Positions 4,711 to 63,400 of a stretch of 64,000 bases of DNA are shown here, piece by piece (the first letter of the stretch is position 1; every line of letters starts with the position of its first letter). Made by a program: the position numbers and the translations under genes. The stretch is taken from the NCBI RefSeq assembly GCF_032854445.1, contig NC_088302.1, forward strand, positions 36,956,191-37,020,190, in the 5' to 3' direction. Source of the DNA: Liolophura sinensis. Lineage: Eukaryota > Mollusca > Polyplacophora > Chitonida > Chitonidae. The notes under the pieces were generated by a model. It worked only from the letters and a program-made list of their open reading frames with translations, made no database searches and was not told where the DNA came from.

Positions 4711-7700
4711 GTAAGTATCTGTGTGTCTTGATTTTTTTTTTAGGCATACATCAAAGCTTACCCTCTACCCACCCTCTGATGATCAAATGCACCTTCAAAT
4801 GTCATTAATGGGTTAACCATGACTTGATTATTGATAATACATACATCAAAGCTTGTATGTGGGAAGGTCTGCCAGCAGCCTGCAGATGGTCCTGGGTTTC
4901 CCCCGGGCTTTGCCCGGTTTCCTCCCACCATAATGCTGGCCGCCATCGTATAAGTGAAATATCCTTGAATACGACGTAAAACACCAATCAAATAAATAAA
5001 TACATCAAAGCTTCCCCTACAGCCCCTCCCCACCCTCAACCCCCCCGATGATTATATGCACCTTTCATATGTCATTTATGGGTTAACCTTGACTTGATTA
5101 TTGATAATAAGTAATGTCTCAGTTCTCTTGTGTTTAACTGTAATGTCATGGTGGGTGCTGTAAACCAAGCTGTACTTACAGGTGTACGTGTGGTATTATA
5201 ATCAGGGTGTTATACATGTAATGAAGGTGTTATTCTAGTAATGGGGTTAATATTACACATGCAGTTAGGGTGTTATATGTGTGATGAAGATGTTATACAC
5301 GTAAAGATGGTGTTATATGTACAAAGAGGATGTTAACGTTAATTAGCATTTAACGATATTGTTGTACATATATAAAAGTATACATGTATATATAATGTTT
5401 GACATGTCATGTGTAATGAGTGTTACATGTGTATTAAATTATGATGTCAAACATTATTAAGATTCTATACATGTGTTCATGTCTCATCCTTTATGTGTAG
5501 TATAGGACTCATTCAGATGTGTATTTTTCGATCATCATCCACATACCTTTGCCATAATTTGGAATGATCTGCTTAGAGAGATTGCACGACTAGAACTAAG
5601 GCTTTTGCTGTTTCATGACCTGAGTGTTGTTCCTTTTCGTAGCAGTTCAAGTGCGAAGAAACGTCCATCTAATGGCTCTATAACACAGTCCATGTGAGCA
5701 GTTTAACATGTCTAACCTTCCAAAACCTTGTCCTACCAGTCTGTCTTTACACAATGTCTCATTTTGCTGTATAAGTGCATGATGAATTTCACTATTGCCA
5801 TACATGTATGTCCTGTCATACTGTACATTATTCTCGCTCGTTTCTTACCTCGTTTCTGTGGAAAAATAACATAATGAATTGTTTTGACAAAACTTGGAAT
5901 CTTGAAAGAATCTGTGTATCTTGCTTATGATAGGTTTAAACTTGTACCAACCACTTGCTTACCCATGAAACCCAGTGTACATGTAATCCCCAGCATCTGT
6001 CTTGCTGTAGATCTATAGCCTCTTTGGGCATAATATGTTCAAAATCAAAGAGAAGAATAGAAGCAGTTTTATATTGTTGAACATAAATTTCTTCCTAAAA
6101 ATTAAATGATATGCCTATCTTTCTTGGTACAGTCAAGTAGTTTCAGAAAAATTTGCATATCATTATTACACGCTTTTGCATTTTCTCATTTGCATATATA
6201 CATGTACCGTGATCTGTGAATTATCTTGGTACACCTGTCACTCTGTCAGTCATTAATCTGTTGTCCTTGACCTAGTATTGTCCTGAGAGTGGTGTAATGT
6301 CTTGTGATATCTTCTCATTTATACTTCATGCACATATAGTGACTTCACTTCCTGTTCCATCGGTTATCTATCATTTTATATATAAAAAAAAGACTTCATA
6401 GTTTGATAGCTGTGTTTTGTAAGGTGTTGTGAGGCATTTCAGATTTTGATTTGAGACAGTAAATGAAAAAAGCTGTACAGATTAAAGGAGGATTCCACAG
6501 CAAAGTGTTCTTAAAACTAGGTGAAACGTTGTTGCTAAACTAATTAGTATCCTCATGTGCATAGCTTTTTCTTAAAAAAAATTGACTCAGAAAGTCATCA
6601 TATAAATATCATAGATTAGAGTACATAAATGTATTTAATTATTGAGGTAATAAATAATCCCTGTCTTAGTCTTTCCACTGGTGAGAGGAAGTCAACAGAA
6701 AAGCAATATTTTATAGCATCTTCAGTTGTCTGATTACTTGCAGCTAAGTTTATCCACTAATATCATCGGCTTATTATGTATGTATACAAGAATTCAGTAT
6801 AAATGTACATGTAGATATGCAGGTGGCTGTCTTTCTGCCCTATAGGACATCCTCAGTGACCAGTATGACAGGAAGTGTGGCCAGCAGTTTGTCCAGCAGT
6901 AGCAGTTCCTCCAAACCAAGACGGTCAGTGAGAAGAGATGACCAGTATCAGTTATGATCAAGTCTGACCAAGTAGCCACTCCACACACTCACTGACTAGA
7001 TCTGAAGAAACACCCGTTCCCAGTCTGCCGGATTAATCAGCTACCTTTGCCTCATATTCTTTCCTCAGATATAGTCAGCGTTAGATTAGTGTAGGGAATT
7101 ACCTTACCAGACCTGATTTTACTGATATTGATGTGATGGCCATTTTTGTTTTTATAAATTTCATAAACTTTGCTTGTCTTGTAAAAAAAAAAAATTCTTG
7201 TTAGTTTCTGACTACTGTATTTCACCTGGTGTTAGGTCTGTAAAAATGTGTAACTTTTCATCAAATCTTTAAATTTACAATGTATGTGTATTTTTCACAT
7301 TTTCAAAAATGTTGTAAAAGCCTGACATCCTACTTCTTGATGTGTGTGTATTAAATTATACTTCAGCACTTGTACTTTTGACCATTGCACTTTCAGTTCT
7401 GTGAGAACCCTGTATTCCTGTGATGCTGAGAATGAGTCTGAACTGTCCTTTGAACCAAACCAAATTATTACTAATGGTAAGTTAATTTAAGTAGGAAACT
7501 ACAGCACAGCTAACATACATGTATAATTGAGTACTGGGAGAGAGTATTGGCCAAGTGATTAAGGTGATTTCCTGTCAATTAAGTGATGGCCCAAGGCTGA
7601 TCATTATGCTCCATTCCATTCTCGGGGGTCTTAGTGCCAAAAGCCAGACTTTGGCACTCCTGTGTGGTCACACATGAAGTTTGCTTTAGACACCTTGCCT

Positions 7701-13204: not shown

Positions 13205-14640
13205 GTGAGCAAGAGCCCAGGTGTTCTAGAACTTCACGTGCAACTTGGTTCTGCCACAATTTACTACACAACTGATGGCAGAGCGAGAGCACAAATGTTC
13301 TAGAACTTCCCATGCAGCATGGTTCTGCCACAATGTACTACACAACTGATGGCAGAGTGAGAGCACAAATGTTTTAGAACTTCACGTGCAACACGGTTAT
13401 GCCACAAGTTACTACACATCTGATGGCAGACCAAGAGCACAAATGTTTTAGAACTTCGCGTGCAGCATGGTTCTGCCACAATTTACTACACAACTGATGG
13501 CAGAGCGAAAACACAATGTTCTAGAACTTCACGTGCAACACGGTTATGTCACAAGTTACTACACATCTCATGGCAGAACGAGAGTAGATATGTTTTAGAA
13601 CTCCACGTGCAACATGGTTCTGCCACAAGTTACTACACATCTGGTGGCAGAGCGAGAGCACAAATGTTCTAGAACTTCCCATGCAGCATGGTTCTGCCAC
13701 AATTTACTACACAACTGATGGCAGAGCGAGAGCATGGTTATGCCACAAGTTACTACACATCTCATGGCAGAACGAGAGTACAAATGTTTTAGAATTCCAC
13801 GTGCAACATGGTTCTGCCACAATTTACTACACATCTGATGGCAGAGCGATAGCACAAATGTTTTAGAACTTCACGTGTAGCATGGTTATACCACAATTTA
13901 CTACACATCTGATGGCAGAGCGAGAGCACAAATGTTCTAGAACTTCACGTGCAGCATGGTTGTGCCACAAGTTTCTACACATATGATGACAGAGAGAGAG
14001 CATGGTTATGCCACACGTTATTACACATCTGATGGCAGAGCGAGAGCACAAATCTTATAGAACTTCACGTGCAACATGGTTCTGCCACAATTTACTACTC
14101 ATCTGATGACAGAGTGAGATCAAAAATGCTGTGGAACTTCACATGTAACATGGTTCTGCCACAAGTTACTACACACCTGATGGCAGAGCAAGAGCACAAA
14201 TGTTCTAGAACTTCCCATGCAGCATGGTTCTGCCACAATTTACTACACAACTGATGGCAGAGCGAGAGCATGGTTATGCCACAAGTTACTACACATCTCA
14301 TGGCAGAACGAGAGTACAAATGTTTTAGAATTCCACGTGCAACATGGTTCTGCCACAAGTTACTACACATCTAATGGCAGAGCGAGAACACAAATGTTCT
14401 AGAACTTCCCATGCAGCATGGTTCTGCCACAAATTAATACACATCTGATGGCAGAGCGAGAGCGCAAATGTTCTACAGCTTCACGTGCAGCATGGTTCTA
14501 CCACAATTTGCTACTCATCTCATGGCAGAGCGAGAGCACAAATGTTCTAGGACTTCACGTGTAACATGGTTATGCCACAAGTTACTACACATCTGATGAC
14601 AGAAGGAGAGCACAAATGGTTACGCCATGCATACTATATC
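13205..14640. repeat. 74 bp minisatellite array, type A
   Basis: About 20 units of roughly 74 bp: GCAGCATGGTTCTGCCACAA, TTTACTACACATCTGATGGC, AGAGCGAGAGCACAAATGTT, then CTAGAACTTCACGT. Many units carry the palindromes TTCTAGAA (or TTTTAGAA) and CACGTG. One unit with an internal deletion of about 30 bp, together with its neighbours, appears twice 536 bp apart (13656-13822 and 14192-14358, identical by eye), so a multi-unit block was duplicated. The short open frames here come from the repeat and are not genes. Confidence 0.95.
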
Positions 14641-15090
14641 TAATTGGAGACTGTGGGCCCAAATGTTCTAGAACTTCAAGTGGAGCATGGTTGTGCCATG
14701 CATACTAGATCTGATTGGAGACCGTGGGCCCAAATGTTCTAGAACTTCAGGTGGAGCATGGTTGTGCCATGCATACTAGATCTGATTGGAGACCGTGGGC
14801 CCAAATGTTCTAGAACTTCAAGTGGAGCATGGTTGTGCCATGCATACTAGATCTGATGGGAGACCGCGAGCCGAAATGTTCTAGAACTTCACGTGGAGCA
14901 TGGTTGTGCCATGCATACTAGATCTGATTGGAGACCGCGAGCCCAAATGTTCTAAAACTTCATGTGCAGCATGGTTGTGCCATGCATGCTAGGTCTGATG
15001 GGAGACCGCGAGCCCAAATGTTCTAGCACTTCATGTGCAACGTGGTTATGCCATGCATGCTAGACCTGATGGGAGAACGACAGCACTAAT
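14640..15090. repeat. 71 bp minisatellite array, type B
   Basis: About six units of roughly 71 bp related to type A but with a changed middle: GAGCATGGTTGTGCCATGCA, TACTAGATCTGATTGGAGAC, CGTGGGCCCAAATGTTCTAG, AACTTCAAGTG. Adjacent units at 14650-14870 are nearly identical, implying recent expansion. Confidence 0.93.
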
Positions 15091-15524
15091 GTTCTTGAAA
15101 TTCACAAATACAATATATATCGAAAAGATTTATTAAATTTGATTGGACTTATAACTTATACATACTCCTTAAAAGCCAATTTTCAATTTTATAATTCTTG
15201 GGTCAATCTTGTGATTGCTTTAAGGCAATGAGCAATGTTTATACATTAATTAACATTGACTTGCCAGGATGTGGACTGCATTATGATGTCTTGAGTGCCG
15301 GCATGTGCACGTTGTATATAGCGAACATAAAAGCCCACCGAAAACAAATCATGCATTTTACATATTGGACCATCTTAATCCCGCTAGCTATTATGTCAGA
15401 CACCATAACAAAGCCTGTAGTAAGCATCAGCCTTGCTGACAGGAAGATGGTCTTGGACAGAATATGTTACGTTTTCGTTTCTAAGCTTACATATATACTG
15501 TGCTCTTAATGTTACCTTATGGCT

Positions 15525-15950
15525 CAATGCCGACTAAGCAACTGTAAATTACATGTAGCGTATTAACCAATGCCGACTATACAACTGTAGCCTGCATGTA
15601 GCGTATTGACCAATGCCAACTATGCAAATGTACCCTGCATGTAGCGTATGAACCAATACCGACTATACAACTGTACCCTACATGTAGCGTATGAACCAAT
15701 ACCGACTATACAACTGTACCCTACATGTAGCGTATTAACCAATGCCGACTATGCAACTGTACCCTGTATGTAGCGTATGAACCAATACCGACTATACAAC
15801 TGTACCCTACATGTAGCGTATGAACCAATACCGACTATACAACTGTACCCTACATGTAGCGTATGAACCAATACCGACTATACAACTGTACCCTACATGT
15901 AGCGTATGAACCAATACCGACTATACAACTTTACCCTACATGTATCATAT
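15525..15950. repeat. 43 bp tandem repeat array
   Basis: Nearly ten units of 43 bp: GTATGAACCAATACCGACTA, TACAACTGTACCCTACATGT, AGC. Central units are identical and flanking ones diverged. 43 is not a multiple of 3, so the open frame through it is not a conserved peptide repeat. Confidence 0.95.
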
Positions 15951-17264: not shown

Positions 17265-20200
17265 GTGAGTCTATGTGCCTTAACTTTTTGGGGGGATTGC
17301 TGCGAAATGTGGTTGCCCAAGAATATTTTCACGGGTATTATGGGCCTCTTGTATACTATGGACGGAGTAAACGAGAGTCGCTTTGGGTCAAGTGTCAAGT
17401 ATGTCGCGTATATATACATGTGTGACACTCAGGTTTGTTCCGGGCACAGTTTCCTCCAAAAATTCTTGGCATTAAACACCAATGAAATAAATAAATAGAT
17501 AACATTTTGTCATTTTTCACAACTGCATTTTCTCACATGAAACATTTGTTTTTTATTTGCTAACATGCATTTTAAGATGTGCCCTAAAGTGTAAAAGTAC
17601 AAAAAACGTGTCAGCTTTGTTCTTGGAGGGTAAAATGGTTCTGAAGAGCAGTTTTGTTAAGGTCCGCCTGGGAATTAAGTAGACTTGAGTTGTGACTTAA
17701 CGGTAATAGTCGTCGCAACAACTGTGTGGTGGGTAGAGGAGTTGGAGCAGGAGGGGCGCTAAGCCTGGGCGAGTTTCATGAAGCTGACTTAGCTCAATAA
17801 GCCCTTAACTACCATGGCAGCTTATGTTGTAGAGATATAAAGTGCACTTAGCTAAGGGCAACTTAACACTAAGTAAGCTTCATGAAACCGGCCTCTGGTC
17901 CCTGGAAGTTCATCGATGAAGTCATTTACGAAAATTTCCGACCACTGACAGAAACTAAGCATAAAATAAAGGGTCTATTTAAGTATAAAGTATGCTTCAA
18001 ACATGATGGTTTTTTTTTTCAATATAATTATATTCTTCATCCTCTTAAAAACATACTAGTAATCTCAGTTTTAGGGGCATTCTCCATGTATCCTTTACGT
18101 TGTAATTTGTTGGTCAAATACTTCCATATTTTATGTCACAATGGTTATTCCCTTACATCCTGTTTTCTCCCTGCCAAATAAATAAATAAATACATGAATG
18201 AGCATGGTTGTGGTCAACAAAAGTGTATTGTATAAGAACTTTGCCCTGTAGCTCTCGTATGTGGATGGGTCTTCGCGTCCCGGAAACATCCGAGTCCGAG
18301 CTGGATTTCCACTGGGTAGATGGGTCGGCCATGATAGTATCTGACTGGGACGGTGATGAACCTAACAATCTAGATAGGATGAAGTGTGTTCTGATTCAAG
18401 CAGAAGACGACGACAAATGGAATACGCGTCCCTGCTCGGAGAAACATCCGTTTGTGTGTCAGACGAAAGGTAAATGAATTTTATTATTTATTTATTTTAT
18501 TTATTTGCGTGGTGTTTTTACGGCGTTCTCAAGAATATTTCAAGTACTACGATGGCGATGGTGGGAGGAAACCGGGCAGAGCCCTGGGGAAACCCACGAT
18601 CATCAGCACGTTTTTGCCAGACGTACGGCCGGAGAGGAAGCCAGAATGCATTGAACTTGAACTCACAACTCCCGCATTGTTGAGAAGCTCCTGTTTCATT
18701 GGGCCGCGCTGTAAGTTAATTTTACAGTGATGACATAATAGCAGAATGTATGATACAAAACACTACATCATAAACAGAGTAAAATAATTGCAACGACGAG
18801 TGTGATATTGGCAAATGATTGGCCACACGTAAACGGTGAAATCCGGCTTCTTCACAGTTTACCTGTGTCAGTCATAGGGTTTTATTCTGACGTTTTTCAT
18901 GTAAATGCCTTAAAAGTAGCAACGATGATTGAATTTTATTAAACGTCACAGAGGCAGGTGGGTGTTATAATTGTTTCATGCATACACATCTGGCGAAACT
19001 ATTTCATTCACAGTGTCAGTGTGACATATGATTAGCTCTGCCTCCCTGCAACGCCCTGCTGAAGACACTAGACCAGTAGTTTCTTTGTGTGTTCCAGATT
19101 TAATTTCTTTACATTTATTTTGAAGCGGCTTCTAACTCACTTGCAATGCCCTGCCGCATTCGTAAACCCATGTAGTCTGGTTTCTCTGCAACGCCCGTGG
19201 GCAAAGAAATAGAGCAAATTCCCGTTAGTTTATTATACCAACATTTTGTAATTTTATCATGTGGCATTGATGAACAGCATGACTAGAAATTTGCAGTGCA
19301 CACCAGAATGCACAGTTGTGACTTTCCCAATACAACAACGCAGAAATGTATCCATGCATTGGAGCAGACATTCGTAGACCGACCTTCAATAATCGCAAGG
19401 CGAATTGCAAAAACGACGTGTAACACAAACCATCAAAGAACTAAAAAAGTATATAAAGTACGAAATTAGGACGGAACCATGCAAAGAGATGCAGTCGACA
19501 GTTTTCAATGATTTTGGAGAGAATTTGATGTTGAAAATGAGATTTCTTGGCGAAATGAGTGAATCAGTATTCAAACCGTGTACCATGCTTTGTGTAAGTT
19601 GTCCATAATAAAATTTGTATCTTAGTTCCACTTTGATTGCAACTGTTCAAAATGTGGTGATCTAATTCAACACGGTGAATATACATCCACTAGCAGACGT
19701 ATACTAGCTTGAAGTGGCCTCTTACATGACGGGGGCCTCCGTGGCTCAGTTGGTTAGCGCGCTAGCGCAGCGTAATGACCCAGGAGTCTCTTACCAATGC
19801 GGTCGCTGTGAGTTCAAGTCCAGCTCGTGCTGTCTTCCTCTCCGGCTATACGTGAGAAGGTCTTGCAGCAACTTGCAGATGGTCGTGGGTTTCCTCCCAC
19901 CACAATGCTGGCCGCCGTCGTATAAGTGAAATATTCTTGAGTACGGCGTAAAACAACCAATCAAATAAATAAATAAATCATACATGACGTAAATGGTTAA
20001 AAAGGAACACAGATTTTGGAAGAGAAAAAGGCGTAGTAGAACAAATCGAGAAACTCAATGAGCTGATCAGCCCAAACCTCGCTCTTTCTTTCAGGTTTAC
20101 TCTTCAAGTTTAACATTTTAATTAACATTGTTTTCTTTACATTTATCTCTCAGCTCAACAAGATTCATCCATCAGCCCATTTGCACAGTTCACCCTAAAG

Positions 20201-24459: not shown

Positions 24460-24707
24460 TTATTTATTTTATTTATTTGATTGGTGTTTTACGCCGTACT
24501 CAAGAATATTCCACTTATACGACGGCGGCCAGCACTATGGTGGGAAGAAACCGGGCAGAGCCTGGGGGAAAACCAAGACCTTCCCACGTACGGCCGGAGA
24601 GGAAGCCAGCATGAGCTGGACTTGAACTCACAGCGACTGCATTGGTGAGAGGCTCCTGAATCATTACGCTGCGCTAGCGCGATAAACCAACTGAGCTACG
24701 GAGTCAT
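24460..24707 (-). mobile_element. full-length SINE family A
   Basis: Complete from the T-rich tail to the head (GCGCTAGCGCGATAAACCAA, CTGAGCTACGGAG). The flanks TCACGCGCTTT and TCATGCGCTTT form an 11 bp target-site duplication with one mismatch. Confidence 0.9.
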
Positions 24708-28379: not shown

Positions 28380-29477
28380 AAGAGGCACGGTATGAAAATA
28401 TATTTAAATGAAGTAAATGAAACCAAAACTGCAAAATAGTGTGACGCCTAATCTGACTTTACCGGTGACGAGAAACCTCTTTCTTTCACTCAAGGATAAT
28501 GAATGAGCATTATTACTGGTTCCCCATTATAATATACTGAGGGCGTTCGATACAGCACAATATAGGCCTACGTGACCAAGATTATTAGCTAAGTAAATAT
28601 GAGCAAAACGCCTACAGATGAACAATACCATTTAAATTTTAGAAAAGCTTCACTGGAGATGTTAGGGAAAGTTTGGTGGCTATGATATACTTAACTCTTG
28701 TGTATTGTGATAGCAATGGCAAATTTTTCGAAGACGGCAGATTTCCGTTCGTCCGGGTCCACCAACATCTCGACAACATCGAACGTTAATATTGTTAAAA
28801 CTTGTACACGTGCTAGAAGCAATATAATATGTATATAGTGTGAATTCTCTTGTATCAGAAAAAATAGGCCTACAGCGATCTCAATTGATATCCTAAAATA
28901 TGGTGTGAATTATAATTAGAGTTCGTTTAACTGAAGACGATAAGTGGCTTTATAACGACAGAAACAACTGATATCTTTAAACAGTAGCAACACAAAGAGA
29001 AATCAGTCCTCTGGTACGCCATACGGAGGCATATAAATCTGGACACTGGACAACAACAACTGAATCATGCAGGCAGCAATTTAGCCAACAAGAAGGTTAA
29101 GTAAAAACATTTATAATATATGAACTTTAATTTATTATCATTGGCAACACTTCATATTCATTGCGTTTTGTATAATACGACTGGACGGAATTATCATAAA
29201 AATACATTAGTTTCAACATTTAACATCTACATGTACATATTATATAAAAGGATAACATCTAAAACTTTTTTTCTAAAAATATATGGGTCATCGTATGAAA
29301 AATGCAAAAAACATATAGCACAAAAACAACAAAAGTTTGCACAAACAATTATATTAGCTTTTAAAATGTGTATTGCCTTAGGTAATGACGGTTATTTCAA
29401 ATTATCTGGAATTATAAGTAGCATTTCTGAGTGACAGCGTTAAATTAAGCTAGATATACACTATCTGGAAATGTAAT

Positions 29478-29483
29478 TTATTT
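29478..29483 (-). terminator. possible polyadenylation signal of FAM181
   Basis: Minus-strand AATAAA about 760 bp beyond the stop codon. Motif only. Confidence 0.25.
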
Positions 29484-30245
29484 GTTTCGTCTTTTTGAAG
29501 TTTTAACTTTTACGACGACAATTAGGTTTGCAGGTGGGGGTAACCAAAGTGTCCCGTTTAAAAAAACACTGCCCTGCACCAGCTACCAAAAAATCTTCAG
29601 ACTAAAGTTGAGCTATGGCGAGAGCTGGGTCCGAACCTGTAATTTCATTGGGCAGATACTTCTCACCGTCTTAATATTGCATCTTCAGATGCATTTATCC
29701 AGAGATATAATTACCAATTCTACTGAATTAAACCAGTAATCGTTACAAAACATATTACACACTCGATATGTTCATCTTGAAAGATCTGAGAGGTTATTAC
29801 AGGACAAAAAAAAAATTTAAAAATTCGCTCGCTGTAAAACAGCAACATGTCAAAATAATAAAGGACATAGCATTCTCAAACGGACTTTGTCTGCAAGTAA
29901 AAATAAGAGATGTCAGCGGTATTGAATCATGTGAGCCACACTTACGTCACCATAACGGAACAATTCTATCAACAAATGTCATACTATATTTGTCCCCCAA
30001 CAGACAAGCCTGTCTGTTATTTTCATCATTGCCAACTGGGTATTTAGACAATGTGGGTTAAGTTTAGCATAATACTTCACCAAAGTAATACATGATCTAG
30101 AATGCTCATATGGCTTATGCTGTCAGGATACAATACAAATCTTTGCCTCACAGGTTCCTAAGGACCACTTCTAATTATCTCGCACGAGCCTTCGTTCGTA
30201 CATAATACTGCAGCATGAACAAATTCACGAAAAAGCAATTAAAGT

Positions 30246-31445
30246 CTAAGCAAATGAAAAGCAGATCTGTTGCTGAGGGTCGTCTGGCCAGTTGGGAGAA
30301 TTCAAGGTAGAATATCGGTGGATAGAAGCAGCATTGGAACAAAATACATTCTGAAAAGTCGGCAGATTATTACCCCGGCTGTTGTCGTTGTTGAAAAGTG
30401 TTTGTTCGTGAGTGGTGTTGTCACAATACCTATGGTTGCCGTCCTCTAGTTGACTACACCTGAGGTAATCCGTATTGAAATTTGGATCTGGGGTCTGGAA
30501 TTCCAAGAAGCCATTGTCTATTTGAGAGATTCCATGATTGCTGAACACAGCATCGTTACAGTTTGTCAGGGAAGTGGAGCTGTAGCAGGGCATCCAGGAG
30601 GAATCGGTGGAGTTGTTTTGGAGGGGAGGGGTGGACGTGACAGGGTCGGAATGGTCAGAGTAAGACGACAGTGGGCTGCAGGGCTCGGCGGTGGCACCAT
30701 ACGGAGAATTACTGTTTAGCGAACCGGTATCCTCTTGCCACCCAGATCCACAGACGGGTGACAGCAGATCGGAAAACTGAGTATGTTCGAGGAAAGCTTC
30801 GAGAGATTCCGAAGGAAACTGCACGTAATCACGAGTGTCTATTTCAGAGCTCTGCATCTGTTTCTTGTATGACTGCTGTTGGTTGTACATGATATTGAAA
30901 CTCGGCAGAGAAGCTGTCGTCGGGGTATGTGGGAGCTCTTCTATGGGCTCCAGGAAGTAAGCGGGGTTTCTGTCCGTGGGGTCACACCGTCTTTTCACGT
31001 GAAGACTGGGTTCGGTGAAGAAGGAGGCTGGAAGGTTCCTCTTCCTGAGAGGTAATTTATTGGCCCCCGACTGGCATCTACTCACGGGGTCCGTGCAACA
31101 TTTTTCGTGCAATGTTCGAGGGTCAAACAATGCCTGAAGTGACCTCTGCTGAAGGCCTGCTTGAGACGTTTCTTTGCGGCTGCTTTTGACGAAGCACAAA
31201 CCTTGTCGATTAAGAGCGCTCTTGTTGGTGTCGGTTAGCACCGTTGTTGGGGACTCCGCGGAGTCTGATGGCGTGTTACCACATTGTTTCAACTGCTTCT
31301 GTAAGTACTTCCTGTGATTAACCTTTCGTTTAGATTTGGCGGGTCTGTCCAAGGCCAATTTAATGTTACTAGAAGCGATGTCTACAAAATTGAGTAGATT
31401 GACGGCGGGTTCATCCACCCCGTGTCGTCGAGCGGACTTCTCCAT
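30246..31445 (-). CDS. FAM181: FAM181 family protein (TEAD-binding motif protein)
   Basis: 399 codons in one exon from ATG at 31445 to TAG at 30246. Residues about 17-55 ([17 protein letters not shown], then [19 protein letters not shown]) are the signature block of FAM181A/B and are nearly identical to FAM181B. Residues 98-108 ([11 protein letters not shown]) are a second conserved block. Residues 131-146 ([16 protein letters not shown]) are the omega-loop motif with which FAM181 proteins, like YAP, contact TEAD transcription factors; Arg, Leu, Pro and the Phe pair of that motif are present. The rest (147-399) is Ser, Pro, Asn and Gln rich and likely disordered. The frame stays open upstream to 31541 without an ATG, and the [15 protein letters not shown] segment may be coding if an upstream exon joins near 31525, so the true N-terminus is uncertain. 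Expected role: nuclear partner or competitor in TEAD/Hippo-regulated transcription. Confidence 0.9.
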
Positions 31446-34400
31446 GACGAGCTGCCCGGGCAGGGACGCTGTGACTATGTTCTCTGAGACAGGCAGCAGC
31501 CAGGCTTCTTGCTCATCTGTATTTACCTGTTGATTACACAAACCCGTTCTCAGTCACTGACACACGTCACGGAGGTCCTCTCAAGCGAGCAGCAGTCCGT
31601 CCGCGTATATCCGCGTATCCAGCAATACCTGGGCCAACTTCAACCTTCTCGGTTTACACTCAGTGCTAAATGTGAGTGTACCTGATGATTAACATCTCAC
31701 CCTTGGACTCGGTTAGACTATTTGCCCGGTCGTCCGTTCACAGTGCCGGTCAGCCACTGTGCAGTGGGCCTATCACAACTTAACTGCTGTCTGATCCCAC
31801 AAAAACCACTCTACTTTCTTATATGTGAACACGGCCGACTGTTCTTGAAAGCGCAAGTCAAATATGACTATGGCTATAGAATGGATGATGGATGGCGGGG
31901 CGTTGAAAAGGTTGACTCAACTGTGGAGAACCCGACCACAGGTGTGTTTGATCCGGTCAATACATGAGAGGGGTGACAGGGTCGGGGCGGGCTTAGCGAG
32001 ACGGTCTTGAAAAGTATGGAGCACTTTCAAGAAGCAAACGTTATTCAATGTCCCATTCCCGAGCCACTTGAAATACGTCCCGACTCCAGCCTTGGCTTAT
32101 TTCACAATATTACGCTCATTTCGCAAATGATATTGCCAGCTATACCCCAAAGGGCAAAAATAAACTCGACCGAGCAAATCTTCAGTGAAATTGAAATCTC
32201 GCATCTATTGGTTGAATCAAATCGTCGACGTGTCGGGATCTGTGACATACTTAAGGAGTTTTGTCTGTTCATAATTTCAAATGGATTAGGAAATTTAAAT
32301 TCTTGCAATCTCAAGAAACGTGTTATGAATTCGACACTTGTGAATAGAGAGACATCGAAGGTATTGAACAGGGTCTTTACACTACTTTGACGGGACAAAA
32401 AGTCGCATTCGAGCTGATGTAGAGACGCTTTTTCTAACATAATGGGGATCATCTAGCCAGTAAACCAGCCACAAACGTTTGTTGAACTTGTAGTAGTATA
32501 TGCAAAATTCAGATTATATATACAAAACGAAAAGGAACTGAGGTATATAGCATGGGGCCGCAGTCTTTGAAAGGGGAATATATTATCTGTTGCGGACGTA
32601 TGCAGGCAGAATTGGCAAGAAGTCACTTTTCTGTCAGGACGCTAGTTTATAGTGTTATTAGAGTCGATTAGTCCTGCTTGGAAAATGGTCGTGCAAGGGT
32701 AGCAAGCGACCCTCTTTGTCCACCGATTATCCGACCCGATGACCACGCTCTATGGTAGGGAACAATTGTCCCGGCTCTCACTGGGGATTCACTCCTTACC
32801 GCGATCCTCCCTTCATTTTCACTTAATCTTCCTGCTTTATTAGCCTGTGTGAATGGGGCTAAACATTGTATCATCCAGTGGAAAACGCCCAGAGTTTACA
32901 CAGCGAGCGCTTAGGGCCGCACACAGTGTACATGAAGACTATACACAGGGTGTTTAGTGTATACATCAACGGTAAATGCCCCCAATCGGGGGGCGGGAAT
33001 CTGGGTAATCAACCCTTATTCACACCATGCTCACCTTGGTTTATACAGAGGTGGGAAAAAGTCACCAACAATCAGCGATATCTGTACAAATATATACACC
33101 TGAAATATATGATCAGACAAACAACAAGTAAAAAAACGTGCCAACATTGATTTACATATGGAAGATAGCATGTTGTAAAAGCCAAAGGAAATTTGTAAAA
33201 ATGAAGTATATTGCAAGTTCAAAACTCAGTTGATGTAAGTAAGATATCTGTTCAGATAGATGTTAAAGTAAATATTTACCAATTATCCATTTCAGTCAGT
33301 AAACAATAAAGACGATATGTTGTGTGTAAATAACAATAATTACCCGCTCAACGTGCCACAAAATTTCTGTTTGTAGAATTCAGTGATTTGCTTCATTTAT
33401 AGTTACACGAATGCCTTTTCTTAAAACGCTCAAGAATATTTCACATTTTTAGTTTCAGCTGGACCCTTCTCTTTGAATAGGTTTTTTTTTTAGCGTTGAT
33501 CCATTCTTTAATCTACTGATCATTTCATATCAGAATGTGCAATTGTTGAATTTTACGCTTGACAATGTACTTACTCGCAAGAATTGCTAAGAAATGAAGG
33601 GTAGGATTCTCCTGACCTTACGTTACTACAACGTTGTCGCGCGTTATACTGCAAACGTCTGCATTGCAGCTATGCAGAATCTCCGAGAGGGCATTATCTG
33701 AATACTCAGTTTGATAAACCCATATCTGTTTCCACACGGTAGTGATTTGTTCCGAAGGTTAAATCTTTTTTCAACCAACTGATGGGAACATTTGAAGTCT
33801 TAAAGTGAACTGCAGTCAAAGTTTTGTATTTTCTGGTGGAGGTCTTGGGCCAGATTAATAGTGTTAGATGGCAGTAAAGTGGATGGAAGTGAGTTATTCA
33901 CATTTTTTTTCATTCATTTTTTTTGGACTTCCAGTTCCATTGTAGTTGTTAACCTCGGAGTTTCGGGTGAAAATGTGTGTGAATTCAATGAAACCAAATT
34001 CATCCAACATAGAATGCAAATACTAGACTGCCTTTCATTCCGTCAAGTAGTAAAATAATATAAAAATATGAAAAATAACTATAGTTTTGGATATAGCTTT
34101 CGCTGGTCTCAACTCGGGCTTACTTCATTTTTCTGTTTTCTCAGACTTTACAGGCAACACATGTAAATGTCGTGATGGGTTCTAAAAATCGACCCACATT
34201 CATTGGATCACTGAACAGAAAAACTGTACATTACATGATCCATTTTTAAATAACGCTCTTTGTGTTGCGTGCACACATAATTATACCAAATAGCGACATT
34301 AAAGGACCGATTCGACACAGTCATTTCTGACTTCAGTCAAAGTTTAAAACCGCGTCACAGTAATCAGTTCTTGGTAATGGAAGTTGAAATGTTAACACAG

Positions 34401-44242: not shown

Positions 44243-45460
44243 CTAATGTTCTACACTCACAGAAAGCAGTATCTTCATCAGGTCCCCTAGCAAAGATGCC
44301 AGCCACGTTGCTTGCTTCATCAGTTGTTTCATGGCAGGATCAGTCACAGGCTGTCCCATGATTTGTCGCGCCGTGATAACAGTCTTCTTGAAGGCGTCTG
44401 CGATCCGTGTCATTTCCTGCCCCAGTTTAAGAGCCTTAGGAACCTGATCCATCATCAACAGTGTGGCATGACAATGCAGAAACATCTTGGCTAGGGTATG
44501 GACACTACAGTTGACGTTACAGAAGAGTTTTGCAGATGACTGGGTGGCACTCGTCACCAAAGATTTGGCATCGCCGACAAATTGCCGGGTCACCAGAATC
44601 AGCTCGTCCCGACACATCTTTAGCTGCAATGGTTGTTTGTCTATTCGAGACTCCATCAAAGAAGACATGGTTTGTTCCAGCTCGGCCGCCAGACAATCTA
44701 CGTCGTTCCCAGCATGAGCTATGTCCCTGTCTGTTTCATAGTTCTTGGATAGAACAAATTTGATAAAGTTTGTATACTCGGGTGTCACAAAAGGATAGCC
44801 TGTTGCATCTTTGTGGATATCTCCATTAATGGATCGTTTCCTTCCACTGGATCCTCGGATCATGGGACCTCTCGTGGACTTTTCCATCTCTGGTGCATTG
44901 CTCCAAGATGGTGTGCGTGACACCGTAATTGTTCTGCTCCCAGCACTCAGTGCCCTCTGGTCGGAAGAGTCTGTGGAACCATTGGAACTGTCTGAGTTTG
45001 AGGTACTTCCTGTTCCAGAATTCCCAGCACTGCCGTTGGAGCTAGACTTCCTGGAAATGGGTCGCCACATCATGAGGTCGCCGTTTCTCTTCATGGTTGT
45101 CGTGGACTTTGAGGAGCTGTGGGCAGTAGTCTCTTGCTCGTTCTCCACATCTGAGGATGTTGTGAAGTCGTTCTCTTCAAAGATACTTCTTGCTTCCGCA
45201 AATGTAGGAGGGCTGGACTTTGCAGATGTTATGGTTTGTGGTGTTGTAATCTTGGAACTACTAGTTGGAATCCCACGTGTTTGGACTGAAGCACTATTTA
45301 ACTGATCTATGGAGCCCTTAGCCACACCTGTAGTGCCTGAAGCCTGGTTTGTAGTGCTTAAAGTCTCTTCACTGCCTGATGTCTTGTGTGATGTCTGACC
45401 TTGACTTTCGAACACGGCCTTGAGAGCCTTCAGAGGTCCCCGTTTCTTTCTTTCCCTTCC
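44243..45460 (-). CDS. scaffold gene, last exon (helical C-terminus)
   Basis: Acceptor ttcctcacag before GGAAGGG, phase 0, 405 codons and stop. It starts GRERKKRGPLKALKAVFESQ, has a Ser/Thr-rich middle with RSPSWS-like phosphosite contexts, and ends in a helical block containing CRDELILVTRQFVGDAKSLV, SVHTLAKMFLHC and MKQLMKQATWLASLLGDLMK. Confidence 0.92.
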   Translation of the reverse strand, partial: GRERKKRGPLKALKAVFESQGQTSHKTSGSEETLSTTNQASGTTGVAKGSIDQLNSASVQTRGIPTSSSKITTPQTITSAKSSPPTFAEARSIFEENDFTTSSDVENEQETTAHSSSKSTTTMKRNGDLMMWRPISRKSSSNGSAGNSGTGSTSNSDSSNGSTDSSDQRALSAGSRTITVSRTPSWSNAPEMEKSTRGPMIRGSSGRKRSINGDIHKDATGYPFVTPEYTNFIKFVLSKNYETDRDIAHAGNDVDCLAAELEQTMSSLMESRIDKQPLQLKMCRDELILVTRQFVGDAKSLVTSATQSSAKLFCNVNCSVHTLAKMFLHCHATLLMMDQVPKALKLGQEMTRIADAFKKTVITARQIMGQPVTDPAMKQLMKQATWLASLLGDLMKILLSVSVEH

Positions 45461-48400
45461 CTGTGAGGAAAAAATACGATAAAATCAATGAGAATTACAT
45501 GTATAAGTTTATCTGAATTACAGACACAAATTTCAAACACTGAATTGCCATCTTCTGCATGTACATAAATGGACTTATTTGGAATATTTTGTCAGTTTCT
45601 CATTTCGCTTTGCTTTGCATATTTTTCCTGATCCAAAACAGATTTCAGTAAATAGTATACATCAATTTGCAAAGTTGATTTCCCTAACCAGGATCAACAT
45701 ATCTTTTACAGAATTTTACAAGATACAGCTTTTTGCAAAATAAAGCTAATTAATAATTAATTGGTTAATTAATATACCAATTATCCACAAAATGACTATT
45801 TTAAGCTGAAAGGAAAGTAATATACTCATGTTAACAATAACTACATGTGCATGTTGGTTTTGTTTATTTCATTCTTTAATTTTAACAGCACTCTTTTATC
45901 ACTTCAGTTATTGACCACCTCCTCAAGTGATAAATGAGTTTTGGACATCAAGCACAAACAAACAATAAATCCCCAACTGTATTTTTGAAATGTCACAGAA
46001 ATTTCTTACTTATATCTTATGATATAGGGAATTACAACAGAATTTCTCACAATATTTAGAAGGAAGTCATCCCCGGAAAACAATCATACTGGACTACACT
46101 AAATTGATACATGTCCACTACATCTCAACAACTTGGGAGTACTTAGTCCATGAAATGCTACTACTTCTTTCTCAACTTTCCAGTGACAGTTTGTTAATGA
46201 GACATTTATTAAGTTGCCAGATGTGATTTCATGAAATATACTTGTCATTTATAAATTTATCTTGCTCAAGACCAAGGGAAATTTTGACACCTCTTTATAC
46301 CAGTTTAAGAATATATAAACTTTTAGCTAGCCTAGTATATATAAAAAGTACATTATACTTTCACCAGTCAGATTCCAAATAGTATTAATATATTAATGAA
46401 TTCACTAAATATTCAACAACACAGAACAGTTCTCTTTGAAATCTGGTTCTTCCAAAATTGGTTTTTATGAAGCACCACTGAAAAAATGTATGCCTGCATG
46501 ACTTTGGAAGGACATTGTATGAGGTTTCATTAAATTTAGCTTGCAAGTTCTGGCGATAGTTTTTCAGTCTTATTCAGGGTCAAATAAGAAGCTATTTGGA
46601 GGTCAAAGGTCATTTGAGTGGATTCATGTATGAATTAAGTTTCACTGAAATGTGGCTTTGTAGTATACGTTTGAAATATATTCGGCCAAATATGAATGTA
46701 CCTGCAAAAGTGGGTCAAATGTCAATGAAATATTGTCTGAGACTGTTCATTCTTTTTCAAGAGGTGTCAAATCTCTTATACTAATTTGTGCTAATTCCAT
46801 ATAGTCAGCGACAAACCATTTGCATGTACAGCTGAGTTTTAGTATGAAATATATCATCTTGGGCTACTGTAAATGATATAAAATTACATCCATGGCAAAA
46901 TAATCCTGATTTTGTCTTACTCTGAAAATTTGACTGATCTTACATTTGTTTGGAAGGTAGAGTGATATCTTACTTGATAAAGGTAAATTTCAGTCCCGTG
47001 AGTTATATTTTATAACCATTATTTGCCTCTAAAAAAAAACAACCATTTGGCTGCATTTTATGTCATTTACAGCTATGTTCATTTACAGTTACATTTATTT
47101 ACATGTTCTCCGGCTGTACATGCAAAGGTCTGCAGCAACCTGCGGATGGTTGTGGGTTTTCACCGGGCTCTGCCTGGTTTCCTCCCACAATAATGCTGGT
47201 CGCTGTCATATAAGTGAAATATTCATGAGTAAGGTGTAAAACACCAATCAATTAACTAAATCAATAAATAAATAAATCATTTACATGTCTAAGGGCAAAA
47301 GCACACAATAACAGAGGTGTACAAGACATACACTGTATGGTTATCCCGACACTGTCACACTCAAATGTAAACGCAGATGTTAAGCAAGCGTCTGTCCGTC
47401 CTACAAATTATTTGGATCTGATGCTTCACATATGTCACCATACAGCATGGATGATGACTTGATGATCATCGTTCAATCGCAGCAGAATTAAACTGAGAGG
47501 ATAAACAGAACATGCCAACACCTGACCATGCTGCATGCCAGTGACAGTATGAAAAGTGAGATAGATATACAATTAGCTGCCACTCCCTATAATTTACAAA
47601 GCTACACCAGTGTTTATTGTTGCTTTGTAGGCTGAATAAATCTTTTTCAATGTCAGAAGAGGCTATAAAATAAAAACTTGGAAACTGTCTAATTTGTGGA
47701 AAATATGGATTATTCTGGCAATTTTTCCTGCTTAACACCTAGAAATACAGGAAACTAAAAAAAAACACAAAACATGGAGATCAGACAAAAAATAAAAATG
47801 TGGATTTTCAGCTTTGTTTTATTCATTTTTGGATGCTTTTGTAGAGTTGCCTCACCCTCAACTTAAACTGGTATCGCCTAACAAAATTTGACAAACCATC
47901 TAATCTCAGCCCACCTGCAAGATTTAATCATGGATGCTGGAAAGGATTGAAAACAGATGTTTCCTCAAATCCAGTAAAGCAGCAAGTCACAGAAATGTGC
48001 CATACAGATCTGTGATGTTTATAGTAAGATTGCCCAACGCCCACACCAAAGATCAAATAATGGATGCGTGACCTGATAATCACAAAGCTATCCCACATAC
48101 ATCCTATCCTTATTTATTTATTTATTAGATTGTCGTTTAAATAATGCCATAATGTCAAGTTTCATAGGTGGAGGTGACCAGAGTGGACTTTATTCATGAC
48201 AAGTTTCACACATGTGGCCTACAAACAAGCATACCATACTGGTGGAAAAAGTGGTCCCCAATGATCGCTAGAGTGTGAACATACTGTATGGTGCGTGTGG
48301 CAAAACGCATATTGTCACCAAGGCCCCATATGTAGTGAGAGCAGGGAATCTACAAATTCCCTAAGGCTGGCTTTGAAACTGCACCTTGTGTGTTTTAGTG

Positions 48401-57400: not shown

Positions 57401-60400
57401 TAAGAGTAGCATTGATCTGAATGTTATTCCAGTGATTTATGACAACATTTCTTAGCCAAATAATAAAAAAGACAACACAATAAATTATACAATACATGTA
57501 TACATGGTATATCTTTACAGCATAACACTCATTTCTAGACTTAGCTTTTTTGGGGACAAAATGTGCAACGAAGCCTACTTGAAGTCAATATAAACACACT
57601 CAACAACTTTTCAAACAAATTAATTCCTTGACTTTACGGTGTTTCTTAAAAAAGCAAAACAACAAGAAATGTTGACCCTTTGACAATGTTAAATCCTGCA
57701 AAGCTATTTTTATAAAATAAGGAGTCCTTTTTGTATGTCACAGGCAGGTAAGAAATTACACAATTCTCTCTAACTGAAAGCTAATGAAGACACATAAACT
57801 CTAATGTATAGCACTTAATATTTTATCAGGTATTTTCCACTTGAAAAAAAAACCTTACAGAATACTGGAAAAAAAAGTACCCATTTTATTATAGAACAAA
57901 AGTATTTCACTATTGGTACATAAATATGGCTCAAGATTCCTATTTTCAGCACCAGGCAGTGTATTAATTGAGCTGAATAAACTAATGGCATATATTAACC
58001 AGTGCAGTATTTAGAGTTCATTTTAAGTATTAAACTACTAGCCTATCATACAAGTACTACTGTGAATTTGCATACATTCACAAAATATCATAGTGCACAA
58101 TGGGAGCAAATAATAAATTCTGACGATACTCGAAAATATTTAGTTACAATAATATGCACTACATTAATATGTAAACAGTACCCTACAAAAATACATAGTC
58201 ATTTATCTAGAAGCCTATATTAAAGAATGCCTGAAAATCAAAAACCTCATATAGGTTTATAGGACAGTGTCTTTTAGAGCTAGAATATACACATATCTAC
58301 ATAATAACTGATGTGAAGTTCCACACTACTCTTGTGTGCTTTCTGATGATAATTCCACACATTTCACTTACCTTCAGAGAACACAAAACGTCTACACATA
58401 CATCAAGAGCTGATGTTAACTTTATCCCTGGGGGAGCAGACTCACCTGAGCATTGGAGTTGCCAGCTAAGGCCCTCAGTGACAGCTTATTGAAGTTCACT
58501 GGAAGTGTGTTAAACAAGGGCTTCATCGGGGCTTTTTTCTTGTCCCACTTGTCTTCAGAGTTGACGTTATTTTCAGAGTGGTTCTCTTCTTCCTCCTCAC
58601 GATCATTTTCATTGGCCGACCAGTTATTTGAGGTGAAAGGTGAGCGATTCAATGATAATGACTGCTGTTTCCGTGGAGACGACCGTTTTGAGACCTTCTG
58701 ATTATCTCTAGTCGATGACATGTTAATGCAACTCTGTTCTGACAATGAGCTTGACCTTCTTAGAGAACTGCCCTTGCTCTGACCTTTAGCACCAGCCTTA
58801 TCTCCCTTTACCGATGAACTCTCTTGAGCTGATTTAGCACCGCCGTTCCTGCGTCTCAGCATAATGTCTCTGTATTCCTGTAATTTCGCTTTGAGAGCAG
58901 CAAATGTGTCTGATTTGCCATTGCTATCTCCTGAGCCTTTGCTATTCTCACAATGTTGCACTGTCTCTACAGAACGTGTTTTTAAAATGGACTTTGGAAC
59001 GAACTGTCTACTAGGGGTCAAAGATGATTCTCCATTGGATGAATTAGAGCGTAGTCTTTCAGATGACATGCTCAACTGTCGAATGTTATTATTTAATTGT
59101 GGCGAAGGGGATCGCCGAACTCGTAAAGAGCTACTGCGGGCAATTTTCCCTGAGCCATTCGCATGTCCGCTCGTTTGCGAACTTTGTCCAGAGTCCTTGC
59201 GTTCACGATGAGACCACGTTTTCATCAATGAACTGTGAGTTTTTTCCTCATCCTGAATTTCAAATGGAATGGATTTCAGTAAAGAGTTCAGTCTTTCAGA
59301 AACAGTAGAGGGAGATTCGACTTCAACGTGTGCTGCCGTACCTATATTTACATCATCGGCAGACATGTGCCTTCTGTCCATTTTGAAATTCTCGGGTGGT
59401 TGAGGTGCTTTTCCCTTGAACTTTGACCCTTGACCATGTTCAACTGAACTTTCTAATGTTTTGTCACTGGAATGTTTTCTAAGAAGGGACAGATCAACAG
59501 AACTGGAACGCTTGTGAGGAGAGAGCTTTTTCATTTTGCCACCAGCATGATGACTGTTGTCAGGGGTGACAGGTGGCACGATGGGAATATCAATCAATGC
59601 CGGGGACGACGGAGGAGGGGGAATAATTAACGCTGCTATCTCTTCTTCTAGCGACAACTCATTTATACTCGGACTCAATGGACAATCTGCAGGTGACCAG
59701 CTGGAATGCTTACTTTTTTGTTTCTGTCTTTTGTAAGATTTAATTTTCTGCTCCGTTGTTGTTGTATTCCCTGTGGAAGGTGGTGGTGGGACAGTAAGCC
59801 TGGCGATCAGGTCATCAATATCAGTATTCAACTCACTGAGAGGATTGACTCTGAAGCTGTTCAGCTTGGGCGTTCCTCCAGGCGCCGCCCCCAGGGTACG
59901 GTTAGACACTCGCTGTTGATGAGACGCCACCAGATCAGCAGGCTCATGTCCCAGATTCTCTGCCAGACCGTTTGTTAGCTCGATGTTCTCAGAGGAGATA
60001 GTCTCGTTACCAGAATCGCTCTCGTCTTCTGTGAATACACAGTCGCTTAGCCGGGTACCAATCTGCTCTTTGTCGTCGTCTGCGGATGACAAAACACAGC
60101 AGATTGTATCTGTTAGTGAAATAAGGCAGAATCCAAATAGAACTAAAATTTCCTATCTTTTCACCAGCTGATTAGACAAGTGACATAAGCATGATTTCTG
60201 AACAAAGATGATCACCCAACCAGAATTAAGATTCCATATGTACCTGACCAAGCACATATAAATTAGGAAGAACTCGTTTACATTATTATTGCTCTAACAT
60301 GTAGCAAATCTCCACAACTCCGCATATAAGCCGCATGTTCTTTTAAGATGAAAAATAACCTCATATTTTAGTTAATTCACAGTGGTGTTTGGTACTAAAA

Positions 60401-63400
60401 TATAAAGTTTGGTAAAGTCAAAACATTCCAATGTACACACAACTTCTGACATGAAAGTGTACACTTCACTAGAATATACACAGTATCAAAAGTAGATGAA
60501 TACAAATTTAGGCTTATATCCTGGTGCATTCTTCACCCTTACAAGACGTTCTTACAATCCTGCTAGTAATCATCTTCTGGTTTAATTCAGATATCTGCTG
60601 CTTATGTATTTAGAACAGCACTATGGTCATGTTGACAGCTTATTTGATTGATTGATTTATTTATTTGATTGGTGTTTTATGCCGCACTCAAGAATATTTC
60701 ACTTATACGATGGCGGCCAGCATTATGGTGGGAGGAAACCGGGCAGAGCCAGGGGAAAACCCATGACCATCCACAGGTTGCTGCCAGACCTTCCCACATA
60801 CAACCGGAAAGGAAGCCAGCATGAGCTGGACTTGAACTCACAGCGACCGCATTGGTGACAACTTATTAGAAGATTTGGAATTAAAATTTACTGTTTACAT
60901 TAAGTCATGCATAAACTATTAAAATCATCTGTTTAGAGTTTTGCTCAACCTCTGTTACAGGACATTTGATAGGCTATTGTGACAGAGTCTGAATCTTTAC
61001 CCAACAAACCTAAGGTATATGTGACCCTACCTCAATTAAGAGGACCTTCCACAAAAAACATTTTTCTTTGTTCAAAATTCATTTGACAGATGAGCTAAGT
61101 CGACATAAGCACTGGTGTTACCTCAGTTAACAGGCTTTTTTCATCTCCAACATTTAATACTTTTCAGTGATAGAACATCTAATGATGGAATGGCTCAGTC
61201 AACTTAAGTTCTAGTGTTGAGGCAACCAATCAGCTCCTGACTAATGAGTTTGCTGCCACCTGCAATCCAGCTCTCGCTTGTTTTTTTTCCTTGATTAGGA
61301 AAGAAGCATCGACTAGGTTTGTTAGGCAGCTGACAAAGCACCTAATAATTACCATTTAATTATCGTTTTCCTTCAGCCACACACTTGACTGCCCTCATGG
61401 TAGTAATATTGTATGATGTTAGACCCTATCACTGTAAATATACATGCACCAATCTAATAAATGAATAAATAGAAGGAATCATTTAAGGCAGTTCGCTACA
61501 ATTTAAATTTAAGTATTTCTGCACTGATTTTCATGCATTTGTACTTGGTCACATCTGTGATGAAAGTTCTCCACTTACTGTGACGCCATGTTTCAGACGT
61601 TGCAGTAAAACATTCAGCGTCACTAAAATGATGTGATTTCTTACGTTGCACCTCTGCAGATAAACCATTACAACCGCATAAATTTTGTACAATATGTTTT
61701 TATTTATATGATTTTGCACTAATGTTGCACAAAAAAGTAGTTTGGTGAGCCTGATTCCTTTATTTGAAATTATCCATTCCCACGATTATTTGCAGAAATG
61801 TCAAAATTTTAACAAATTCTGAGAGTTAGAAGTGATGCAAAAATCTATACATACATCTGAGTGATATGTAGTGTAGTTACATGTGTATCGCACGTAAACG
61901 GACAACAAATATGAAGGCATCGTAAATGTTCCTTAGACAAGAAAAGTATTTCATTGACCACATATTTTTCACTCTATATTACTTCTTCTAACAGTTAAAT
62001 GCTAGCACTTCACCATTTTTTACGGTTAAATGCAGCAAGCTACCTTATTAAAAGGTGTTTTAATATGAGCTATTTTATCTCTGATTCAACACAATCGAGA
62101 TTTGCTTACCCAGCCTACACAGGAGCTCAAACTGTTTCTCCAGCTCCTGTTTGCTCATCAGGGGCTTCTTTCCTCTGCTACAGGAGGTCCCCGGGGACAA
62201 GGAGCCGTTGTCCATGAAACCTGGGGGAGGGGGATTAGCCATACTGGAGAAGTCGATCACAAGGTCATCATCTGGGGTCTTGGGAGGAGGGATTAGGGTC
62301 AAGTCTGAAATAGATCACACTTCAGTTAGCTATGGACAGATCAATGAAGCCCAATAATTGTGTAAGGGTTTGAATACTTAAACTCAGAATTCATAAACCT
62401 GACATCTTACATAAACATTGATTTAACACCACATTCTGAAAAAAAATTACTTAACACATTTTAGATTTTGGTAGTTTCTAACCGGTTCACAAAATCCACT
62501 GACTACACAGTCATGAGATTGAGAAACTATGCTCTTCATTTTCTTTCCAGCATGTTTTATTCCTTTATTTTAAGATTTCCTCTGGCAATTTATTGAGGCT
62601 GAGAGTTAGATGTCCAATTGTAAATGACCTTTTACTGGAATCTTAATTTTGCCTGTCAGTTGTGCTTAACTGACATAGCAACAGCTGGAAAAAGGAATTT
62701 ATTTATTATGGCATGTTTTAATGCAGGAAGTACACGTGTGACAACATGGCATGCAGCCTACATTTAATTTTAATTGCCAGATGCGGACAGGCCAAAACAT
62801 GATGTATCCTATTTGCAATTACAATTTTTTTTCCAAACTAAACAAATATTACTTTATTGATTCAATCTGCAGAATTCAACCTTCCGTCAGTGCCTATGGC
62901 AACAAGGTTAAGGTGTTGTATTGGTTTTATACTGGCACTTTATGCTGGCACAGGACTGAGTATGTACGTGCTACATACACACTACATGCAGGGATGTTCT
63001 GATTCATGTGGACTGTAGATAATACACAGAGGTCATATATTCCTCCTAACCAAGGCACAAAACCATGATATTCATGAATCAATGTCATCATTTATGAATC
63101 CATGTCATTATTCATCGATCTTACTCCAATCTGATTGAGACGCGAAGTTAGGAAGTCATCATTCCCTGCCATTTTGAGATGTCAAATAGAATTCACTTTT
63201 CACATGTACATTTATTGGTCTACAATCCATATAGATGAAGGAGAAGAATGGTTCCAAGTCACTGCATTGGTATATACTGTAAATAACCTAAATTTTTACC
63301 CAAATACATTTTTTTTGAGGCAAATACATGTTCGAAATACTACGTTATGTCCTAAAATTTGTCCTAAAAAGTTACATTTTTTAAAGCAGGATATTAGACC

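Follow-up and report, generated by a model that had tools for sequence, protein, structure and literature searches.

A probable FAM181 orthologue with a conserved TEAD-type omega loop in a 64-kb stretch of genomic DNA

Background

The closest described relatives of the protein reported here are FAM181A and FAM181B of vertebrates and R7UUL4_CAPTE, the FAM181 of the annelid Capitella teleta. The annelid protein was already reported in 2022, with the conserved N-terminus of FAM181 and TEAD interfaces 2 and 3 described (PMC9710580). In the same work, the interface-2 motif has the consensus LxxLF, the interface-3 motif, which is the omega loop, has the consensus PxxxRxLPxSFFxxP, and the conserved region of FAM181B is placed at residues 59-106. 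In a second annelid, Urechis unicinctus, a gene is annotated as FAM181B in the available part of PMC10380512. The 'FAM181' that appears in the excerpted text of PMC8526868 is read here as a region of YAP itself and not as a FAM181 protein. No paper testing the TEAD binding of an invertebrate FAM181 was found among the matches listed in a literature search that covered few subscription papers and no bioRxiv preprints.

Several other proteins share some of these elements. Human C19orf85 shares the FAM181 N-terminus and is without recognisable TEAD motifs, and PERCC1, a sister family known from echinoderms, molluscs, annelids, and chelicerates, has interfaces 2 and 3 and begins with a helix that is related to the N-terminal one in FAM181 (PMC9710580). 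Vg and VGLL2 have an omega loop that binds TEAD, according to the portion of PMC7566471 at hand. In YAP, residues M86, L91, and F95 occupy the interface-3 pocket, a TEAD aspartate pairs with R89 and a TEAD glutamate with S94, while F96 shields the loop and makes a pi-cation contact with R87, as given in extracts of PMC10146773 and PMC7566471.

The omega loop

The window, which is the whole 64-kb stretch of DNA that was analysed, contains on its minus strand the coding sequence of a FAM181-like protein of 399 amino acids plus the stop codon (30246..31445). Residues 131-146 of this protein, [16 protein letters not shown], encoded at 31008..31055 on the minus strand, make up the omega loop of TEAD interface 3, as identified by Pfam, by the consensus, and by the FAM181A peptide of PDB 6l9f. 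The whole protein matches the Pfam family PF15238.11 (TEADIR3, the TEAD-binding omega loop) with an E-value of 1.2e-7 and 32.2 bits, the cut-off being 26, and a 51-aa fragment matches it with an E-value of 1.4e-8. The interface-3 consensus is met exactly at residues 132-146, with every fixed position kept, and no other match to it occurs in any of the window's six frames. The Pfam match and the consensus together uphold the sequence-only reading of this locus, which had claimed a conserved TEAD-type omega loop.

Across the 16 residues of the loop, 13 are identical to the presumed FAM181B sequence, 11 to the FAM181A peptide of 6l9f, and 9 to YAP. An ungapped alignment pairs L133 with M86 of YAP, R134 with R87, R136 with R89, L138 with L91, S141 with S94, F142 with F95, and F143 with F96. 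These are the positions of YAP that contact TEAD or shield the loop (86, 87, 89, 91, 94, 95, and 96), and six of the seven are identical, the sole change being that of M86 to leucine. With these contact positions kept, the loop should sit in the TEAD pocket, where it would fill interface 3. The retention of all of the fixed positions of the loop argues for selection on TEAD binding. A protein of this kind would compete with YAP/Yorkie at TEAD, or would replace YAP/Yorkie there.

The interface-2 motif

N-terminal of the loop there is an interface-2-type motif that had been overlooked in the earlier reading. This is LQALF (residues 103-107; 31125..31139, minus strand), which fits the published consensus (PMC9710580); no second LxxLF occurs in the protein. 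Its residues L103, L106, and F107 are equivalent to L65, L68, and F69 of YAP. The linker that follows differs in length, with 25 residues from the motif to L133 here and 16 between F69 and M86 in YAP. The N-terminal block, the interface-2 motif, and the omega loop are present in the same order in FAM181A, FAM181B, and R7UUL4_CAPTE, the annelid protein being compared by its description (PMC9710580). The motif separates the protein from Vg and VGLL1, which have a TONDU motif with VxxHF in the accessible text of PMC7566471, whereas the helix motif of the FAM181-like protein is LxxLF.

It is possible that LQALF, lying 25 residues ahead of L133, adds a weak interface-2 contact. Interface 2 is less sure than interface 3: LQALF is complete, yet there is a proline shortly after it (LQALFDP), and a review states, in the part of it available, that the interface-2 helix is absent from FAM181A/B (PMC10146773). 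In the full-length model predicted from the single sequence, which is of very low confidence, there is a short helix at residues 109-116, past LQALF and not on the motif itself.

The N-terminal block and the ancestral function

The conserved N-terminal block of FAM181 is found at residues 15-56 (31278..31403, minus strand), as judged from presumed FAM181A/B sequences, and is predicted by AlphaFold to form a helix, a basic loop, and a second helix. The human FAM181A and FAM181B N-termini in this comparison are presumed sequences, written down after the window had been read, which weakens the comparison. The block is identical to the presumed FAM181B at 33 of 44 positions (score 173, against at most 47 in 2000 shuffles) and to the presumed FAM181A at 27 of 38 (score 136, against at most 53 in 2000 shuffles); none of the 2000 shuffles reaches the score for either. 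The presumed FAM181B block falls at residues 59-106, in agreement with the coordinates in PMC9710580, which is an independent check of its position. When residues 8-60 were modelled alone, AlphaFold placed helices at 12-33 and 42-55 around the basic stretch, with a mean pLDDT of 71.5 and a pTM of 0.34. The basic stretch, [15 protein letters not shown], was located by script in the translation at residues 37-51 (31293..31337, minus strand) and is a possible nuclear localisation signal. Pfam also matched the block to DUF5087 with an E-value of 0.11, but the 12.6 bits fall short of the cut-off, which is 27, and the match was taken as chance. The block, a hallmark of the family, would probably serve localisation or the binding of a second partner.

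The prominence of this block bears upon what the FAM181 proteins did in their ancestor. The TEAD motifs could be secondary in a genuine FAM181 protein, with the main ancestral task being that of the N-terminal block, as in C19orf85. The strong conservation of the block and its predicted helices are in keeping with this, as is C19orf85, which keeps this N-terminus although no TEAD motif is recognisable in it (PMC9710580). Against it stands the omega loop with all of its fixed consensus positions, and the idea is considered unlikely. It had been proposed from the sequence that FAM181 bound TEAD as its ancestral function, before FAM181A and FAM181B split. The age is plausible by sequence and is not new (PMC9710580), but there may have been two ancestral functions. 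TEAD binding need not have been the only one, since C19orf85 has the N-terminus without the TEAD motifs, and to name it as the ancestral function is a plausible but incomplete account, the N-terminal block being no less characteristic of the family.

It is plausible that TEAD binding was already present in the bilaterian ancestor. If the species is a protostome, the TEAD motifs of FAM181 date to that ancestor, in line with the published annelid member. TEAD motifs in an invertebrate FAM181 are not in themselves new, and an ancient link to TEAD can be inferred from the published work (PMC9710580 and, as far as its available part goes, PMC10380512). The locus instead gives a little-studied family of TEAD cofactors one more member, which is intact and apparently consists of a single exon. 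It raises the questions of how the family-marking N-terminal block functions and whether an invertebrate FAM181 makes use of interface 2. One tentative and rather doubtful answer is that invertebrate FAM181 would be a two-site TEAD binder, using interfaces 2 and 3, where vertebrate FAM181A has been described with interface 3 only. The N-terminal block would then be a second ancestral module that couples TEAD to another partner, and each vertebrate paralogue would have lost a different part, with the TEAD motifs gone from C19orf85 and the interface-2 contact from FAM181A.

Membership of the FAM181 family

The TEADIR3 match alone is insufficient to assign the protein to FAM181, because the loop of YAP scores equally. 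The window fragment has 35.1 bits, YAP 35.2, and the presumed FAM181B 34.4, while the presumed TAZ has 16.6 and is below the cut-off. The letters of the YAP control segment agree with PDB 9fza. The FAM181A peptide printed in the available portion of PMC10620186 has 40.6 bits.

Membership of FAM181 is nonetheless well supported by the loop identity, the sequence search of the PDB, and the N-terminal block. In the PDB search the best match of the whole protein is FAM181A (6l9f), with an E-value of 0.27 that is not significant alone, and for a 39-aa fragment 6l9f is the sole match at E up to 10, with an E-value of 0.0068. No YAP or TAZ chain was returned at E up to 10 for either the whole protein or the fragment, although a search with the YAP segment showed that the same copy of the PDB contains one TAZ sequence and at least 10 distinct ones of YAP/Yorkie. 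A match to UvrA (E 2.1) in the PDB was taken as chance. The segment covering interfaces 2 and 3 scores 113 with the presumed FAM181B, the linker of which was shortened by the analyst, and 49 and 46 with YAP and TAZ; each of the latter two scores was reached by 1 of 2000 shuffles. A match of the presumed FAM181B segment to the Pfam family RXLR_WY (E 0.09) is below the cut-off and was also taken as chance. The N-terminal block appears to be the most telling of the three comparisons that favour FAM181, the human sequences in it being presumed ones. It is therefore very probable that the gene encodes a FAM181 orthologue. The protein is predicted to be a nuclear, mostly disordered transcriptional cofactor and to bind TEAD on the face that YAP uses.

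Two other families have to be weighed. PERCC1 could be compared by description only (PMC9710580), and in that description it shares the motifs of interfaces 2 and 3, has the related N-terminal helix, and has a distribution that includes molluscs and annelids. That the protein is an invertebrate PERCC1 is nevertheless improbable, the closeness of its N-terminal block to the presumed FAM181A and FAM181B being the evidence against it.

A divergent YAP/TAZ (Yorkie) would likewise have the interface 2 and 3 motifs, and the equal TEADIR3 scores of the two loops fit this as well. However, a WW domain was not found in the FAM181-like protein, TEADIR3 being the sole Pfam family in it at E up to 10, and neither the protein nor its pieces have another Pfam domain above the cut-off. 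The loop is identical to that of YAP at little more than half of its positions, the YAP and TAZ chains present in the PDB copy are not retrieved, the interface 2-3 segment scores far higher with the presumed FAM181B of shortened linker than with YAP, and the N-terminal block strongly matches the presumed FAM181. The C-terminus of YAP is PDZ-binding, and that of the present protein is unlike it. The chance that this is a YAP/TAZ protein is consequently very slim, and assignment to FAM181 is retained.

A search of NCBIfam gave no match to the protein. Searches of bacterial and archaeal species genomes and of IMG/VR gave 27 and 3 pattern matches, none of them confirmed, using six patterns that lie mostly outside the conserved motifs and so had little power. 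Since this is an animal gene, no relative is expected in bacterial, archaeal, or viral contigs.

The C-terminal part

A Pfam search at E up to 10 gave no match for the 253 residues that follow the omega loop (147-399). The 399 residues of the protein include 50 serines, 33 asparagines, and 30 prolines, and this Ser/Asn/Pro-rich composition, together with the lack of Pfam domains, suggests that the remainder of the protein is disordered. The full-length AlphaFold prediction from the single sequence has a mean pLDDT of 34.1, which is too poor to prove disorder or to serve as evidence for or against an interface-2 helix. Within the otherwise Ser/Asn/Pro-rich C-terminus there is an acidic-hydrophobic stretch, [18 protein letters not shown], read from the translation at residues 213-230 (30756..30809, minus strand). 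It is possible, from its composition, that this is an activation segment.

Gene structure

The coding sequence lies in a minus-strand frame that runs without a stop from 31553 to 30246, a total of 435 codons. The protein begins at the ATG at 31445, which encodes the sole methionine of the frame ahead of residue 186, and the stop codon ends at 30246. In 60 random windows generated by a first-order Markov model, the longest stop-free runs have a mean of 153 codons and a maximum of 204. The remaining five frames each have between 11 and 22 stops across the coding bases. The GC content is about 0.49-0.51 across the gene, where the window as a whole has 0.38, and it stays high as far as about 32000. 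By the length of its frame and by its composition, the gene is real. A pseudogene or a chance open frame has next to no probability: the gene is known from genomic sequence only, but the intact frame of 435 codons is a strong argument against a pseudogene and is more than twice the random maximum, the other frames are full of stops, and the TEAD and N-terminal motifs stand in the published order.

Upstream of the ATG the frame continues for 36 codons without a further ATG (31446..31553, minus strand) as far as an in-frame stop at 31556, and it includes a donor-like CAG|GTAAAT at 31526. This stretch is probably either a 5' UTR or the last part of an exon that lies upstream. One more donor-like sequence is found inside the frame, at 31085. 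The gene, as known from genomic sequence, is apparently a single exon. The two peptides quoted in the sequence-only reading are present where it had placed them, as residues 37-51 and 131-146 in the frame 30246-31553. Its statement that they are in one exon holds in that both are within one uninterrupted minus-strand frame; the donor-like sequences at 31526 and 31085 make this exon structure provisional.

The surrounding sequence

Scans of the 64-kb window for tRNA genes and for Rfam families gave no match. In the region around the gene (29000-33500) there are two TEAD half-sites, one GGAATG and one CATTCC. A C-type lectin domain is encoded on the plus strand at 18202-18477 (PF00059, E 3e-11).

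Two further long open frames are on the minus strand, at 44243-45484 and 58422-60152, of 413 and 576 codons. A codon-usage score, for which the three longest frames were the training set, singled out a 73-codon stretch at 62096-62314, also on the minus strand. These three may be exons that belong to a single large serine-rich gene, possibly the part encoding the C-terminal tail of a scaffold protein of the FERM/PDZ type. None of the three has a Pfam family above the cut-off, and the two long frames have no match in the PDB at E up to 1.

The window also has repeated sequences of two kinds. Large tandem arrays are found at 13207-15104 and 15525-15944, with units of 74, 71, and 43 bases. Dispersed repeats fall into two families, one with 133-base copies at 24464, 38151, 41958, 54559, and 60652, and the other with 136-base copies at 4873, 19845, and 47133. 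In both families the copies are 60-91% alike to the reference copies, and both are probably remnants of transposable elements.
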